From positions 248,001-312,000 of the forward strand of contig CAMCFA010000001.1 of the NCBI GenBank assembly GCA_945873955.1: DNA of 64,000 bases, in the 5' to 3' direction. The position numbers and the translations under genes are program-made. The notes under the pieces are model-generated. The model ran no database searches. It saw only the letters and a program-made list of their open reading frames with translations, and had not been told where the DNA came from. Of this stretch, positions 56,537 through 60,525 are shown piece by piece (positions within the stretch are counted from its first letter, which is position 1; every line of letters starts with the position of its first letter). Source of the DNA: an uncultured Clostridia bacterium. GTDB taxonomy: Bacteria; Bacillota; Clostridia; Oscillospirales; Ruminococcaceae.

Positions 56537-57052
56537 ATGGATAATATAGCAGAACAGTTGGTGGAAAAACGCCGCACCGGCGCGGACACCGTAAAAAAAA
56601 TACTCATTTCAGTGGGAGCGCTGCTTCTGGCATCTTTCTTTATGTATCTTGCGATGATGGGCGCATTCACTATGGTCATCTTCGCGGTGCTTGTACTTGT
56701 GGGAGGCGTCTGGCTGCTGGGCAGCTTCGGCGTTGAGTACGAATACATCGTTACCAACAACGAAATGGACATCGACAAGATCATCGGCAGAAGAAAGCGC
56801 AAGCGCATGATCACCGTGGACATTTCAGAAGCGGAGGAATTCGCACCCTACCCTGCCGAACAGGACACTCCCGTTGACGCGACGGTACACGCGTATTCCG
56901 GCTCTGAGACCGACGCGTACTATCTGGTGGTAAACCACAGCGGCTACGGCAAGGTAAAGCTCATCTTCAATCCTAACGAAAAAATAAGGGAGGCAATTAT
57001 GCAGGAGCTCCCCAACGCGCTCCGCATAAAGCTCAGACGTAATGGCAGCTAA
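56537..57052 (+). CDS. Small membrane protein (DUF6106-like)
   Basis: A 171-residue protein with two close helices (about 22-42 and 46-66) near the N-terminus and a soluble cytoplasmic domain of about 100 residues containing FGVEYEYIVTNNEMDIDKIIGRRKRKRMI. The YEYxxTNxEMDIDKIxGRxKRK pattern is one I associate with a conserved Clostridial family of unknown function (DUF6106). The soluble part resembles a PH-like bacterial membrane domain. It starts the operon that contains the GTPase-nuclease fusion, and its end overlaps the AcpS-like gene by 11 bases. Confidence 0.75.
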   Translation: MDNIAEQLVEKRRTGADTVKKILISVGALLLASFFMYLAMMGAFTMVIFAVLVLVGGVWLLGSFGVEYEYIVTNNEMDIDKIIGRRKRKRMITVDISEAEEFAPYPAEQDTPVDATVHAYSGSETDAYYLVVNHSGYGKVKLIFNPNEKIREAIMQELPNALRIKLRRNGS

Positions 57053-57422
57053 CATTTTTATACGAGTAGGCACGAATATTATCGAATTAAAGCGAATACG
57101 CCGTGCCGCAAGAAATCCGAAATTCCTTGTGAAGTATTTCTCCGCAGATGAGATACGTTTCTTTGTTTCCCACAAGCTGTCTACGGAGCTTATCGCAGAA
57201 AATTACTGCGCTAAGGTCGCGTTCGCAAAGGCGATAGGCACGGGCTTCCGGGTAATTCGCCCTCAGGATATCTCGATACTTCGCGATAGGCTGAATTCGC
57301 CTTTCATCATCACCGACGGGCGCGCGAAAATGCTCGAAGAACGGGAAAACTATGTGTTCAACCTTTCCGTAGCACACTGTAAGACCTACGCAACGGCGAC
57401 GGTGATAATCAACAGAAAATAA
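57042..57422 (+). CDS. AcpS-like protein lacking both magnesium ligands
   Basis: A 126-residue protein with the holo-ACP synthase fold: VGTNIIELKRIRRA at the N-terminus, a central YCAKVAFAKAIGTGF helix and the C-terminal VFNLSVAHCKTYATATVI. In active AcpS the first motif is GTDIVEI and the central one is AAKEAFxKA; the aspartate and the glutamate hold the Mg2+ for phosphopantetheine transfer. Here they are N12 and V59. The glutamate-to-valine change needs more than one base change, so this is unlikely to be a sequencing error. The product probably has no transferase activity. It overlaps the preceding gene by 11 bases and lies 52 bases before the GTPase-nuclease gene. Confidence 0.8.
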   Translation: MAANIFIRVGTNIIELKRIRRAARNPKFLVKYFSADEIRFFVSHKLSTELIAENYCAKVAFAKAIGTGFRVIRPQDISILRDRLNSPFIITDGRAKMLEERENYVFNLSVAHCKTYATATVIINRK

Positions 57423-57426
57423 AATG

Positions 57427-57458
57427 TGCGCCGCACAGCTAGCTGCGGCGCATTTATT
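57427..57458 (+). other. Stem-loop before the GTPase-nuclease gene
   Basis: A perfect nine-base-pair stem TGCGCCGCA / TGCGGCGCA with an eight-base loop is followed by TTTATTA, two bases after the AcpS-like stop. It could be a weak terminator or attenuator that sets the level of the next gene. In TetM-type genes leader attenuation is known, so control by ribosome stalling is conceivable here but not shown. Confidence 0.55.
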
Positions 57459-57474
57459 ATGCAGGAATGATGAT

Positions 57475-60048
57475 ATGAAACGACTTGTTATCGGTATGAC
57501 CGCGCATGTGGACTCAGGAAAGACCACTCTTTCGGAGGCAATGCTTTATACTGCCGGGGAAATACGAAAGCTGGGCAGAGTTGACCACGGTGACGCTTTC
57601 CTCGACACGAACCCGCTGGAGCGCAGCCGCGGTATCACGATATTCTCTAAGCAGGCTGTGCTGAAATACGGCGGAAATGAATACACCCTTCTGGACACGC
57701 CGGGGCATGTGGATTTCTCCGCAGAAACAGAACGCGCTATGCGGGTGCTTGATTACGCCGTGCTGGTCATTAGCGGCACTGACGGCGTACAGAGCCATAC
57801 AGAAACCCTCTGGCGGCTGCTGAAGCGTTACAATATTCCGGCGTTCATTTTCGTGAACAAAATGGACATCTCGTTTCTGGGGCGGGATTCACTGATAAAT
57901 GAGCTGAAACGCAAGATCTCGCCGGGCTGCGTGGATTTCTCAGAGCAGCGCAGCCACGGCGAGCTTGCCGAGGAACTAGCGGAATGTTCAGAGGATATGA
58001 TGAACAGCTACCTTGACAACGGCGATATTTCACAGGAAATTATTTCCACGGAAATTTCCCGCAGGAATGTGTTCCCTGTTGTATTAGGCTCGGCGCTGAA
58101 GCTGAAAGGCGTGGACGAGCTGCTGAGAGTTATTGACGTTTACACGAAAGAACCTCCGCGGCAGCAGGAATTTGGCGCGGTCATCTACAAGATCACCGCG
58201 GACGAACAGGGCGCAAGGCTCACCCACATGAAAATAACCGGCGGTTCTCTGCGGGTGAAAACCCAGCTCTCCTGCGGAGGAAAGCAGGAAAAGGTGAATC
58301 AGATACGGGTGTATTCCGGCAGCAAATTCACGACGGCGGACGAAGCTCCGGCGGGGACGCTCTGCGCTGTGACCGGGCTTTTCGCCGGCAGCGCCGGAGA
58401 GGGTCTGGGAACGGAGAGCAACTGCGCTTCCCCGCTGTTAGAGCCGGTGCTGACCTACCGTATAATACTGCCGCCAAAAACCGACATTCCCTCCGCGCTG
58501 GAAAAGCTGCGCGCCCTGTCGGACGAAGACCCTATGCTGCGTATCGTGTGGAACGAACAGCTAAAAGAGATACACATTCAGCTTATGGGTGATATACAGC
58601 TTGAAATACTGAAAAGCGTTATAAATGAGCGTTTCGGGCTGGAGGTCGAATTCGACGAAGGCAGCATTGCCTACAAGGAAACCATTGCCGCCCCGGTGGA
58701 GGGCGTCGGGCATTACGAACCGCTCAGGCACTATGCGGAGGTCCACCTGCTGCTTGAACCGGCGGAGCGCGGCACTGGGCTGCAATTCTTCACCGACTGC
58801 CGCAAGGACGACCTTGACATCAACTGGCAAAGGCTGATACTCACACATCTTGAGGAAAAAACGCACCTCGGCGTACTCACCGGTTCACCGATAACCGATA
58901 TGAAAATTACCGTCGTCGCCGGGAAAGCGCACATCAAGCACACCGAGGGCGGCGACTTCCGGCAGGCTACCTACCGCGCCGTACGACAGGGACTGCGGTC
59001 TGTGGAGTCGGTGCTGCTCGAACCGTGGTACGAGTTCCGGCTTGCCGTTCCGCAGGAATGTACCGGGCGCGCCATGACTGACTTACAGCGAATGTCCGGT
59101 GAGGTAGATCCTCCCGAAACTGTCGGCGTGGAAACGGTATTCACCGGGAGCGCCCCTGTATCGGAGCTGCGCGGCTATCAGAGCGAGGTCGTGAGCTACA
59201 CCAAAGGCAAGGGGCGGCTGAGCTGTATCCCAAAGGGGTATTTCCACTGCCATAACTCGGAGGAGGTCATAGCCCGAATAGGCTACGACTGCGACGCGGA
59301 CACTGAAAACTCCGCGGACAGCGTGTTCTGCTCCCACGGAGCGGGTGTGCTTGTTCCGTGGAACGAAGCCCCCGCCAGAATGCATGTTGACAGCGGACTG
59401 AGATTTGGCGAAAACGAACATGAGGAAGCCGAGCCTGTGGTAACTCCCCAGCTTGTCAACAGCTACAAGCAGCGCGTCGCAGCCGACAAGGAACTAATGG
59501 AGATATTCGAGCGCACCTACGGCAAGATAAAGCGGAATGAACGCTCTGCCATGCATACCGAGAAATCACCTCCCCCGCCGAAAACGCCGAAGCTCCCTCT
59601 GCCGCCGCAGGGACCGGAGTATCTGCTGGTTGACGGCTACAACATCATTTTCGCATGGGACGAGCTGAACCGTCTGGCAAAGGAGAATCTTGAACTGGCG
59701 CGGTCAAGGCTCATCAACATTCTGTGCAATTACCAAGGCTTCCGGCGGTGCAATCTGATACTGGTGTTCGACGCATACTGCGTCAAGGGAAACCACCGGG
59801 AAATTGAGCAGGAAATGGGCATAACCGTTGTCTACACCAAAGAAGCGGAGACCGCCGATATGTTCATCGAAAAGACCGCCCATGAGCTGGGGCGGAAGCA
59901 CCGCGTCCGGGTGGCGACGTCGGACAATGTGGAGCAGATAATAATCCTCGGAAACGGCGCTGTCAGAGTTTCCGCGACGGAATTTCTGGCGGAGGTCACC
60001 GAGGTGGAAAATACAATAAGAAAAATCATAGAAGAAAAGTATAATTAG
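57475..60048 (+). CDS. TetM-like ribosomal GTPase fused to a YacP/Rae1-type NYN endoribonuclease
   Basis: An 857-residue fusion. Residues 1 to about 690 match ribosomal protection proteins (TetM/TetO, EF-G-like): G1 AHVDSGKTT (10-18), ERSRGITI switch I, DTPGHVDF with catalytic H78, NKMD (128-131), then the EF-G domains II-V. A proline-rich linker (about 696-712) leads to a complete NYN/PIN domain of the YacP/Rae1 type (715-857): LLVDGYNII (D720), LVFDAY (D766), ETADMF (E792, D795) and TSDNVEQ (D817). All acidic catalytic positions are present. Rae1 in Bacillus cuts mRNA in the ribosomal A site, the same site where TetM acts, so a GTPase-delivered A-site nuclease is a natural inference. The ATG at 57475 removes 17 unsupported codons. 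Tetracycline resistance is possible but not to be assumed. Confidence 0.88.
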   Translation: MKRLVIGMTAHVDSGKTTLSEAMLYTAGEIRKLGRVDHGDAFLDTNPLERSRGITIFSKQAVLKYGGNEYTLLDTPGHVDFSAETERAMRVLDYAVLVISGTDGVQSHTETLWRLLKRYNIPAFIFVNKMDISFLGRDSLINELKRKISPGCVDFSEQRSHGELAEELAECSEDMMNSYLDNGDISQEIISTEISRRNVFPVVLGSALKLKGVDELLRVIDVYTKEPPRQQEFGAVIYKITADEQGARLTHMKITGGSLRVKTQLSCGGKQEKVNQIRVYSGSKFTTADEAPAGTLCAVTGLFAGSAGEGLGTESNCASPLLEPVLTYRIILPPKTDIPSALEKLRALSDEDPMLRIVWNEQLKEIHIQLMGDIQLEILKSVINERFGLEVEFDEGSIAYKETIAAPVEGVGHYEPLRHYAEVHLLLEPAERGTGLQFFTDCRKDDLDINWQRLILTHLEEKTHLGVLTGSPITDMKITVVAGKAHIKHTEGGDFRQATYRAVRQGLRSVESVLLEPWYEFRLAVPQECTGRAMTDLQRMSGEVDPPETVGVETVFTGSAPVSELRGYQSEVVSYTKGKGRLSCIPKGYFHCHNSEEVIARIGYDCDADTENSADSVFCSHGAGVLVPWNEAPARMHVDSGLRFGENEHEEAEPVVTPQLVNSYKQRVAADKELMEIFERTYGKIKRNERSAMHTEKSPPPPKTPKLPLPPQGPEYLLVDGYNIIFAWDELNRLAKENLELARSRLINILCNYQGFRRCNLILVFDAYCVKGNHREIEQEMGITVVYTKEAETADMFIEKTAHELGRKHRVRVATSDNVEQIIILGNGAVRVSATEFLAEVTEVENTIRKIIEEKYN

Positions 60049-60060
60049 GAGGACAAAGAT

Positions 60061-60525
60061 ATGCTGCAAGAAAAAACACCCGCACCGGATTTCACGCTCA
60101 ATGACAAAGACGGAAACAAGGTCTCCCTGTCGGATTTCTGCGGTAAAAAGGTCGTTCTGTATTTCTACCCTAAGGACAACACTCCCGGCTACACACGGCA
60201 GGCGTGTGCCTTCGCGGCGGCGTACAACGATTTCCGCAGCGCGGATATTCAGGTTATCGGTATAAGCAAGGACAGCGAGGCTTCTCACCGGAAGTTCGCC
60301 GAGAAGTACGACCTGCCGTTTATCCTGCTGTCAGACCCGGAACTGGAGGTTATCAAGAAATACGACGTCTGGGCAGAGAAAAAGCTGTACGGGAAGCTCG
60401 GCTTCGGTGTGCTTAGAAGCACCTATATTATCGACGAAAATGGCGTTATTGAAAAGGCAATGCCGAAGGTAAAGCCGGACACCAATGCCGCGGAGATTCT
60501 CGCGTATCTGAAAGGAAAAGCATGA
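60061..60525 (+). CDS. Bcp/PrxQ-like thioredoxin-fold protein without the peroxidatic cysteine
   Basis: A 154-residue peroxiredoxin of the Bcp type in overall sequence: KTPAPDFTLNDKDGNKVSL, VVLYFYPKDNTPG, QVIGISKDSEASHRKF and STYIIDENGVIEKA. The active-site motif, normally TPGCTxEAC, reads TPGYTRQAC: Y44 replaces the peroxidatic cysteine, while the resolving cysteine C49 remains. The codon is TAC, one G-to-A transition from TGC. Unless this is an assembly error, the protein cannot reduce peroxide in the usual way. The gene is 12 bases after the GTPase-nuclease gene and overlaps trmO by four bases. Confidence 0.85.
   Translation: MLQEKTPAPDFTLNDKDGNKVSLSDFCGKKVVLYFYPKDNTPGYTRQACAFAAAYNDFRSADIQVIGISKDSEASHRKFAEKYDLPFILLSDPELEVIKKYDVWAEKKLYGKLGFGVLRSTYIIDENGVIEKAMPKVKPDTNAAEILAYLKGKA

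Follow-up and report, generated by a model that had tools for sequence, protein, structure and literature searches.

Known relatives of the fused protein

Proteins in which a GTPase resembling the tetracycline resistance (Tet) proteins is followed by a YacP-like NYN domain have been described in ten clostridial species by Atkinson 2015 (PMC4342817), where the fusion is placed in the Tet subfamily and a role in antibiotic resistance is suggested. We analysed a protein of the same architecture, and very probably of the same family, encoded on the plus strand at 57475..60048 of a 64,000-nucleotide stretch of DNA (the window) from an uncultured Clostridia bacterium of the Ruminococcaceae (contig CAMCFA010000001.1). 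In contrast to that account, the GTPase half falls outside the Tet proteins here, sister proteins without the nuclease exist, and the fusion goes together with loss of rae1, the gene of the free nuclease. The architecture was published in 2015; what is new is the distinct non-Tet clade, the near-exclusion of free Rae1, and the loss of rae1. We found no later treatment of the fusion in the open PubMed Central literature searched, and the available portions of a 2020 screen of tetracycline genes (PMC7725328) do not mention it.

The nuclease half resembles Bacillus subtilis Rae1/YacP (PDB structures 5mq8 and 5mq9), with which it shares the NYN_YacP domain and its acidic active-site residues. The B. 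subtilis protein is free and encoded beside rlmB/yacO (PMC6613710), whereas the fused domain is tethered to a GTPase and usually tail-less. The GTPase half shares the five-domain body and overall fold of the TetM, TetO and TetW proteins, which resemble elongation factor G (EF-G), and is about 27-29% identical to them over residues 1-598; it differs from them in having no equivalent of TetM Pro509, in its HxKHTEGGDFR tip, in an extra extension, and in a sub-cut-off score with the curated Tet model. In a structure search with the whole predicted model, the best matches to about residues 1-608 include ribosome-bound EF-G and EF-G2 paralogues (7pjv, 1wdt, 8dmf), which we take to lack a nuclease; YacP is not among the matches listed, as GTPases fill the rows, and the search is uninformative on the NYN domain. 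The EF-G of the window genome itself has a different tip loop and no clade-specific extension.

Fused and free Rae1 in Clostridia

The combination of a TetM/EF-G region with NYN_YacP, whose spread the preliminary description of this locus had left for a search, is widespread. In a class-level sample of 343 genomes, 216 have an NYN_YacP domain that scores above the cut-off. The frames that encode it have about 160-216 residues or mostly about 840-960 residues; the exceptions are broken fused frames and one frame of 342 residues (G342), counted as free Rae1. The fusion occurs in 119 genomes and free Rae1 in 98, with a single genome (G340) in both sets, and 127 genomes have neither. Eight of the 119 fused genes are split or lie at contig edges (G228, G212, G351, G241, G291, G103, G130 and G246), and G317, below the cut-off, was left out of the genome counts. 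In the window genome the fused gene is the sole NYN_YacP gene, and a second, phylum-level sample added 12 fused genomes, all 12 without free Rae1. The two forms also alternate within genera: g56 has six fused genomes and one with the free form only (G110), g51 has two fused and one free (G262), and g111 has one of each (G228 and G152, respectively). The connection with Rae1 proposed from the sequence of this one locus has thus become stronger than that description could see.

The chromosomal position of free rae1 tells a similar story. The gene often lies between rlmB and sigH, with mrnC frequently upstream, the names sigH and mrnC being our reading of the sequences. In each of 52 genomes, 16 of them with free Rae1, we inspected the best locus for rlmB. 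The rlmB-sigH pair is present in 11 of these 16, G340 included, and rae1 lies between the two genes in 11/11; an intact rae1 lies there in none of the 20 fused-only genomes that show the pair. Three of these 20 slots retain rae1 remnants with in-frame stops, namely G082 (85 and 36 residues, E 8e-13), G155 (40 residues, E 7e-8) and G134 (35 residues, E 7e-4). The slots of G355 and G196 match 13-15 residues of the active-site motif alone, which is individually not significant, and 19 reversed slots used as a control gave no rae1 match. Among five queries, all three remnants match best to the free rae1 of G340, in which both forms survive. The occurrence of remnants in two family codes, together with the swaps within genera, suggests that free rae1 was lost more than once. 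In all, replacement of free Rae1 by the fusion in these Clostridia is well supported by comparison of genome sequences.

The fusion is found throughout the window's genus and also outside it. Among 61 genomes, the window genome and 60 relatives, full-length fusions with loci were found in 30, others lying at contig ends; all 61 gave some match, since EF-G itself matches the query. A scan of species genomes returned at least 586 relatives, some possibly not fusions, and the 80 kept from these include Ruminococcus flavefaciens, R. callidus, Faecalibacterium prausnitzii, Intestinimonas and Anaerotruncus. In the class-level sample the fusion spans at least 24 family codes. Given the unbroken frame and the full-length fusions in many genomes, a frame artefact or mis-assembly was rejected.

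Architecture and conservation of the fused protein

The fused gene runs from ATG to TAG and encodes 857 residues. Its translation contains no internal stop across the 857 codons, and none was found between the two parts, in agreement with the single continuous frame of the preliminary description. Another in-frame ATG lies upstream at position 57424, in the frame of the fused gene. The protein resembles its relatives from 57475 onwards, and the start of the annotated Monoglobus homologue falls at the corresponding place; the start codons of the other relatives were picked by proximity to the query start and lend no independent support to 57475.

All Pfam domains of the protein score above their cut-offs, as expected of the TetM/EF-G-like GTPase and Rae1-type nuclease named in the preliminary description. 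The G domain with the G' region (GTP_EFTU, E 3e-49) occupies residues 4-224 (57484..58146), and the motifs AHVDSGKTT (P-loop), RGIT, DTPGH, NKMD and SA are all intact; they are conserved in an alignment of 110 distinct fused proteins with 15 unfused ones. Domains II and III span residues 233-394 (58171..58656; EF-G_D2 at 233-308, EFG_III at 323-394), a block with a predicted local distance difference test score (pLDDT) of at least 84. Domain IV, the part that enters the ribosomal A site in EF-G and TetM, covers residues 396-508 (58660..58998; EFG_IV) and carries the aligned tip loop at residues 486-496 (58930..58962). Domain V follows at residues 513-594 (59011..59256; EFG_C). GTP_EFTU with intact G motifs together with domains II-V makes the protein a translational GTPase of the EF2 family. 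A clade-specific extension occupies residues 588-640 (59236..59394), with pLDDT of about 90; it gave no Pfam match over the cut-off and no convincing sequence match in PDB, although its fold may be a known one.

The two halves are joined by a tether (59410..59616) that, according to model and alignment, consists of a hinge (646-655), a helix (658-682) and a disordered basic, proline-rich linker at about 688-714; pLDDT falls below 50 at residues 646-655 and 690-707. Linker length was measurable in 86 of the 119 fused rows and is 30-39 residues in 78 of these; the composition is 13% Pro and 25% Lys/Arg. The NYN_YacP domain (E 2e-49) takes up residues 717-855 (59623..60039), with the catalytic residues D720, D766, E792, D795 and D817. 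In the predicted structure, a two-hinge tether connects the EF-G-like body with a nuclease that stands apart from it; at a predicted template modelling score of 0.68, the model should not be used to place the nuclease with respect to the body.

The 119 fused rows of our alignment represent 116 distinct proteins (L031, L032 and L034 repeat L003, L004 and L007), and its 12 Tet rows represent 11; L120 and L139, which are partial, and L161, which is in pieces, were excluded. The histidine of DTPGH is catalytic in EF-G. Its counterpart H78 (57706..57708) is kept in all 116 distinct fused and all 15 unfused proteins. D720, D766 and D795 are likewise invariant in the 116, D817 is Asp in 115, and E792 is Glu in 111 and Gln in five. 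The six residues picked out in the preliminary description are at the places it gave and are conserved in homologues. A separate alignment of 110 rows gave 110 for H78, D720, D766 and D795, 108 for E792 and 109 for D817. In the nearest pair (L001/L002), the ratio of nonsynonymous to synonymous substitution rates (omega) is 0.079 in the GTPase and 0.038 in the NYN domain, and L001/L004 gives 0.103 and 0.071, respectively; the synonymous distance (dS) is saturated in several other pairs. These values indicate that both halves are under purifying selection. One divergent fused frame, L139 (G246:C1), contains an in-frame TAG, which may reflect a pseudogene, a sequencing error or recoding.

The GTPase half is distinct from Tet proteins

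The best curated model for the GTPase half is tet_protect of NCBIfam, with which the window protein reaches 390.8 bits, where the cut-off is 775 and the Tet(M) control scores 875.7. In TetM, Pro509 is described as the residue that overlaps tetracycline (PMC7456112, PMC8161019). The corresponding residue of the window protein is K488; this column has Lys in 114 and Arg in two of the 116 distinct fused proteins, Lys in 15/15 unfused proteins, and Pro in five of the 11 distinct Tet-labelled rows. The tip loop and the extension with C592, C619, W629 and H637 are common to fused and unfused members. None of the 11 distinct Tet rows has residues aligned with the stretch from C619 to H637, while four of them have Cys at the position of C592. 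In a quick-search tree built with 25 of the 119 fused rows, the fused GTPases form one clade (support 99) and the 15 unfused another (90); the two are joined (99) apart from the Tet rows. By these sequence features, the GTPase half constitutes a distinct EF-G/Tet-like subfamily and differs from typical tetracycline-protection proteins. The class-level genomes also contain another group of Tet-like GTPases (L142-L145, L149 and L150); there Val, Ile or Met replaces Pro509, the printed rows have an HxxHT tip, and tet_protect scores of 561 (L142) and 521 (L150) are well below the cut-off.

The unfused GTPase of the same subfamily was found in 22 of the 343 genomes, none of which has the fusion (7.6 expected); 16 of the 22 have free Rae1, as do three of three further genomes with the unfused form. 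Such co-occurrence, with its modest enrichment, is the pattern expected if two partners had been joined in one lineage. One genome has two copies of the unfused GTPase (L123 and L124, G163:C1). An unfused relative, 47.9% identical and in two pieces, lies at 8001-9895 of L161, a 138-kb plasmid of Ligilactobacillus salivarius, in a region where the PLSDB table lists no gene.

The nuclease half and its missing tail

The window protein scores 168.4 bits with Pfam NYN_YacP (cut-off 24.6). The B. subtilis YacP structures match the fused domain over 137 residues (phmmer E 3e-26) and are the sole solved sequence relatives found. After position 836 the window protein has 21 residues, and at most 30 are found in 96 of the 116 distinct fused proteins, against 45-49 in 13/13 free Rae1; judging by these lengths, the C-terminal tail that free Rae1 possesses is missing from most fused NYN domains. 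The R166P variant of B. subtilis Rae1 is reported among loss-of-function suppressors (PMC6613710); by its position, this substitution would fall in the tail region. Loss of the tail is expected if docking is supplied by the GTPase, which would make a ribosome-contacting tail dispensable.

Two free Rae1 proteins (L156 and L157, genomes G265 and G281) are 58-60% identical to the fused domain, and their genes do not adjoin rlmB. They may be splits of a fusion or kin of its donor. A further protein, L158 (G342:C66), has NYN_YacP in the 342-residue frame already mentioned, in a genome without a match to the fused-type GTPase at E 1e-40.

Possible function

Sequence comparison shows an unbroken frame, conserved motifs in both halves, a separate GTPase clade, near-exclusion of free Rae1, rae1 remnants and loss of the tail. 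We consider it somewhat better than an even bet that the protein is a GTP-driven ribosome factor that brings the Rae1 nuclease to stalled ribosomes, having replaced free Rae1. Ribosome docking, stalled ribosomes as targets, a GTP-gated order of events and mRNA cutting are what we infer. The GTPase half would recognise ribosomes with an empty or blocked A site and bind them in its GTP form. The tethered nuclease would then cut the mRNA in or beside the A site, either once GTP hydrolysis withdraws domain IV or on an adjacent collided ribosome. The truncated message would leave a non-stop ribosome, to be cleared by transfer-messenger RNA (tmRNA), which is present in the window genome.

Several observations weigh against this scheme. 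To judge from descriptions of TetM and Rae1 and from known structures, domain IV would fill the very A site that Rae1 needs, so that docking and cutting could not be simultaneous; the scheme needs ordering or action on a neighbouring ribosome, either of which would be permitted by the long tether with its two hinges. The 127 genomes without Rae1 in any form suggest that its function is dispensable in many Clostridia. The association of the unfused GTPase with free Rae1 is modest (16/22 versus 81/202, Fisher p 0.0055 with kinship ignored). As to the slot, no rlmB-sigH pair is seen at 21 of the 52 rlmB loci, which are hence uninformative; they include those of the other five free-Rae1 genomes (G265, G281, G107, G131 and G174), where rae1 is elsewhere; and the three clear remnants are confined to two family codes (f47 and f71). 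The fused NYN domains are not a single clade in a tree of 25 of the 119 fused and 14 free rows, where the free proteins of G265 and G281 nest among them, and the fusion has no conserved neighbours, no cluster being found in more than nine of 82 loci.

The same body of evidence leaves some room for two independent activities on one chain, the fusion fixing nothing more than their co-expression or ratio; the GTPase would then be a translation factor in its own right, for alternative translocation, for recycling or for stress, and the NYN domain would be an ordinary Rae1. The halves do occur apart: NYN_YacP is missing altogether from six of the 22 genomes that carry the unfused GTPase, and in 81 of the 343 genomes free Rae1 is accompanied by neither form of the GTPase, so that each half can work alone, which also counts against the coupled scheme; the tether, moreover, is long and flexible. 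Near-exclusion and loss of rae1 show that the fused form is enough for the Rae1 role, and they do not call for coupling. Loss of the tail speaks the other way, suggesting that the GTPase has assumed part of Rae1's own work, and we regard mere co-residence of the two activities as unlikely. Cleavage of rRNA instead of mRNA, in ribosome maturation or quality control in which the GTPase checks ribosomes, would fit the frequent location of free rae1 next to rlmB and an mrnC-like gene, both given 23S rRNA-related roles (PMC6613710, PMC8266666), as well as the original proposal of NYN domains in rRNA and tRNA maturation (cited in PMC4342817); with B. subtilis Rae1 described in these papers as an endoribonuclease that acts on mRNA in the ribosomal A site, it seems very improbable.

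Resistance to tetracycline or another A-site antibiotic, to which the RNase would add a new mechanism, follows from the suggestion of Atkinson 2015. One fused copy lies on a 518-kb Monoglobus record labelled as a plasmid, which is in its favour and weighs against a non-Tet reading. Against it stand a tet_protect score of about half the cut-off, Lys or Arg in place of TetM Pro509 in all 131 distinct fused and unfused proteins, and the separate clade; on these grounds tetracycline resistance as the main role was rejected as the best reading, and the TetM-type protection raised in the preliminary description is not supported. The fusion spans many family codes, while a search of 72,556 plasmid records gave only two that match 80% or more of the fused protein. 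Genome G049 carries, besides the fusion, a Tet(W) identical over 639 residues to plasmid-borne Tet(W) (L147, L164), which speaks against full tetracycline resistance being conferred by the fusion alone. We therefore hold an antibiotic-resistance role to be improbable; a GTPase-linked replacement of Rae1 explains the role of the protein better than a resistance function. A role in anti-phage defence was also rejected, as PADLOC models matched no families at E 0.001.

Genomic neighbourhood

Neighbourhoods were compared at 82 loci (L031-L110, L162 and the window), several of them cut by contig ends. With the window included in both counts, TrmO adjoins the fusion in seven and Bcp in four. The translation-quality-control operon put forward in the preliminary description was rejected on these counts and because the loss of the Bcp residue is not common to relatives; TrmO, present in the window as had been said, is not a conserved neighbour.

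Two other genes near the fusion had been presented as lacking catalytic residues. Upstream, at 57042-57422 (plus strand), is an AcpS-like gene. It accompanies the fusion in 21 of the 25 loci from the same genus, one of them partial, with identities of about 61-90%, and in a few named loci as well. In the column that we take to be the catalytic Asp it has Asn, Ala, Ser or Gly, with Asp only in L003 and its duplicate L031; the column that we take to be the catalytic Glu has Val, Ile, Met or Ala in all 24 rows covering it. The claim is thus borne out for Glu in every relative that covers the position, and the gene appears, from these substitutions, to be a conserved pseudoenzyme; the window genome has two other PF01648 matches, in frames of 214 and 233 residues. 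Downstream, at 60061-60525 (plus strand), the Bcp-like peroxiredoxin of the window has Tyr at what is presumably the peroxidatic Cys. There the claim is right for the window protein, while Cys is kept in the relatives seen, at five related loci (one a duplicate).

A terminator-like hairpin of 10 bp lies at 57426..57453 (plus strand), 22 nt before the start codon. Such hairpins are present in 16 of 25 same-genus loci, ending 21-48 nt before the start codon and varying in sequence, and overall in 26 of 118 fused loci (two of them repeats), mostly of the window's genus, versus 26 of 508 control open reading frames. As there is no room for a promoter between hairpin and start, transcription probably passes through the hairpin, and control of the fused gene by attenuation is possible.

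Implications

As to the route by which Rae1 enters the ribosomal A site, a natural fusion with an EF-G-like GTPase that replaces the free enzyme would suggest delivery by a translational GTPase, and brings the question within reach of study in a single polypeptide. More tentatively, and with less than even confidence, one may envisage a dedicated GTPase-nuclease pathway for stalled ribosomes in Clostridia, in which a paralogue of EF-G whose tip loop is basic would probe the A site and set off cutting by Rae1; the two would be one protein in genomes with the fusion, and elsewhere the unfused GTPase would be an unrecognised partner of free Rae1. If true, this would be a bacterial counterpart, in logic, of GTPase-assisted no-go decay. 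Members of the family are carried by Faecalibacterium, Ruminococcus and Intestinimonas, which are common in the gut, and, since the best curated match of such proteins is a tetracycline-resistance model, the evidence for their non-Tet nature bears on surveys of resistance genes.

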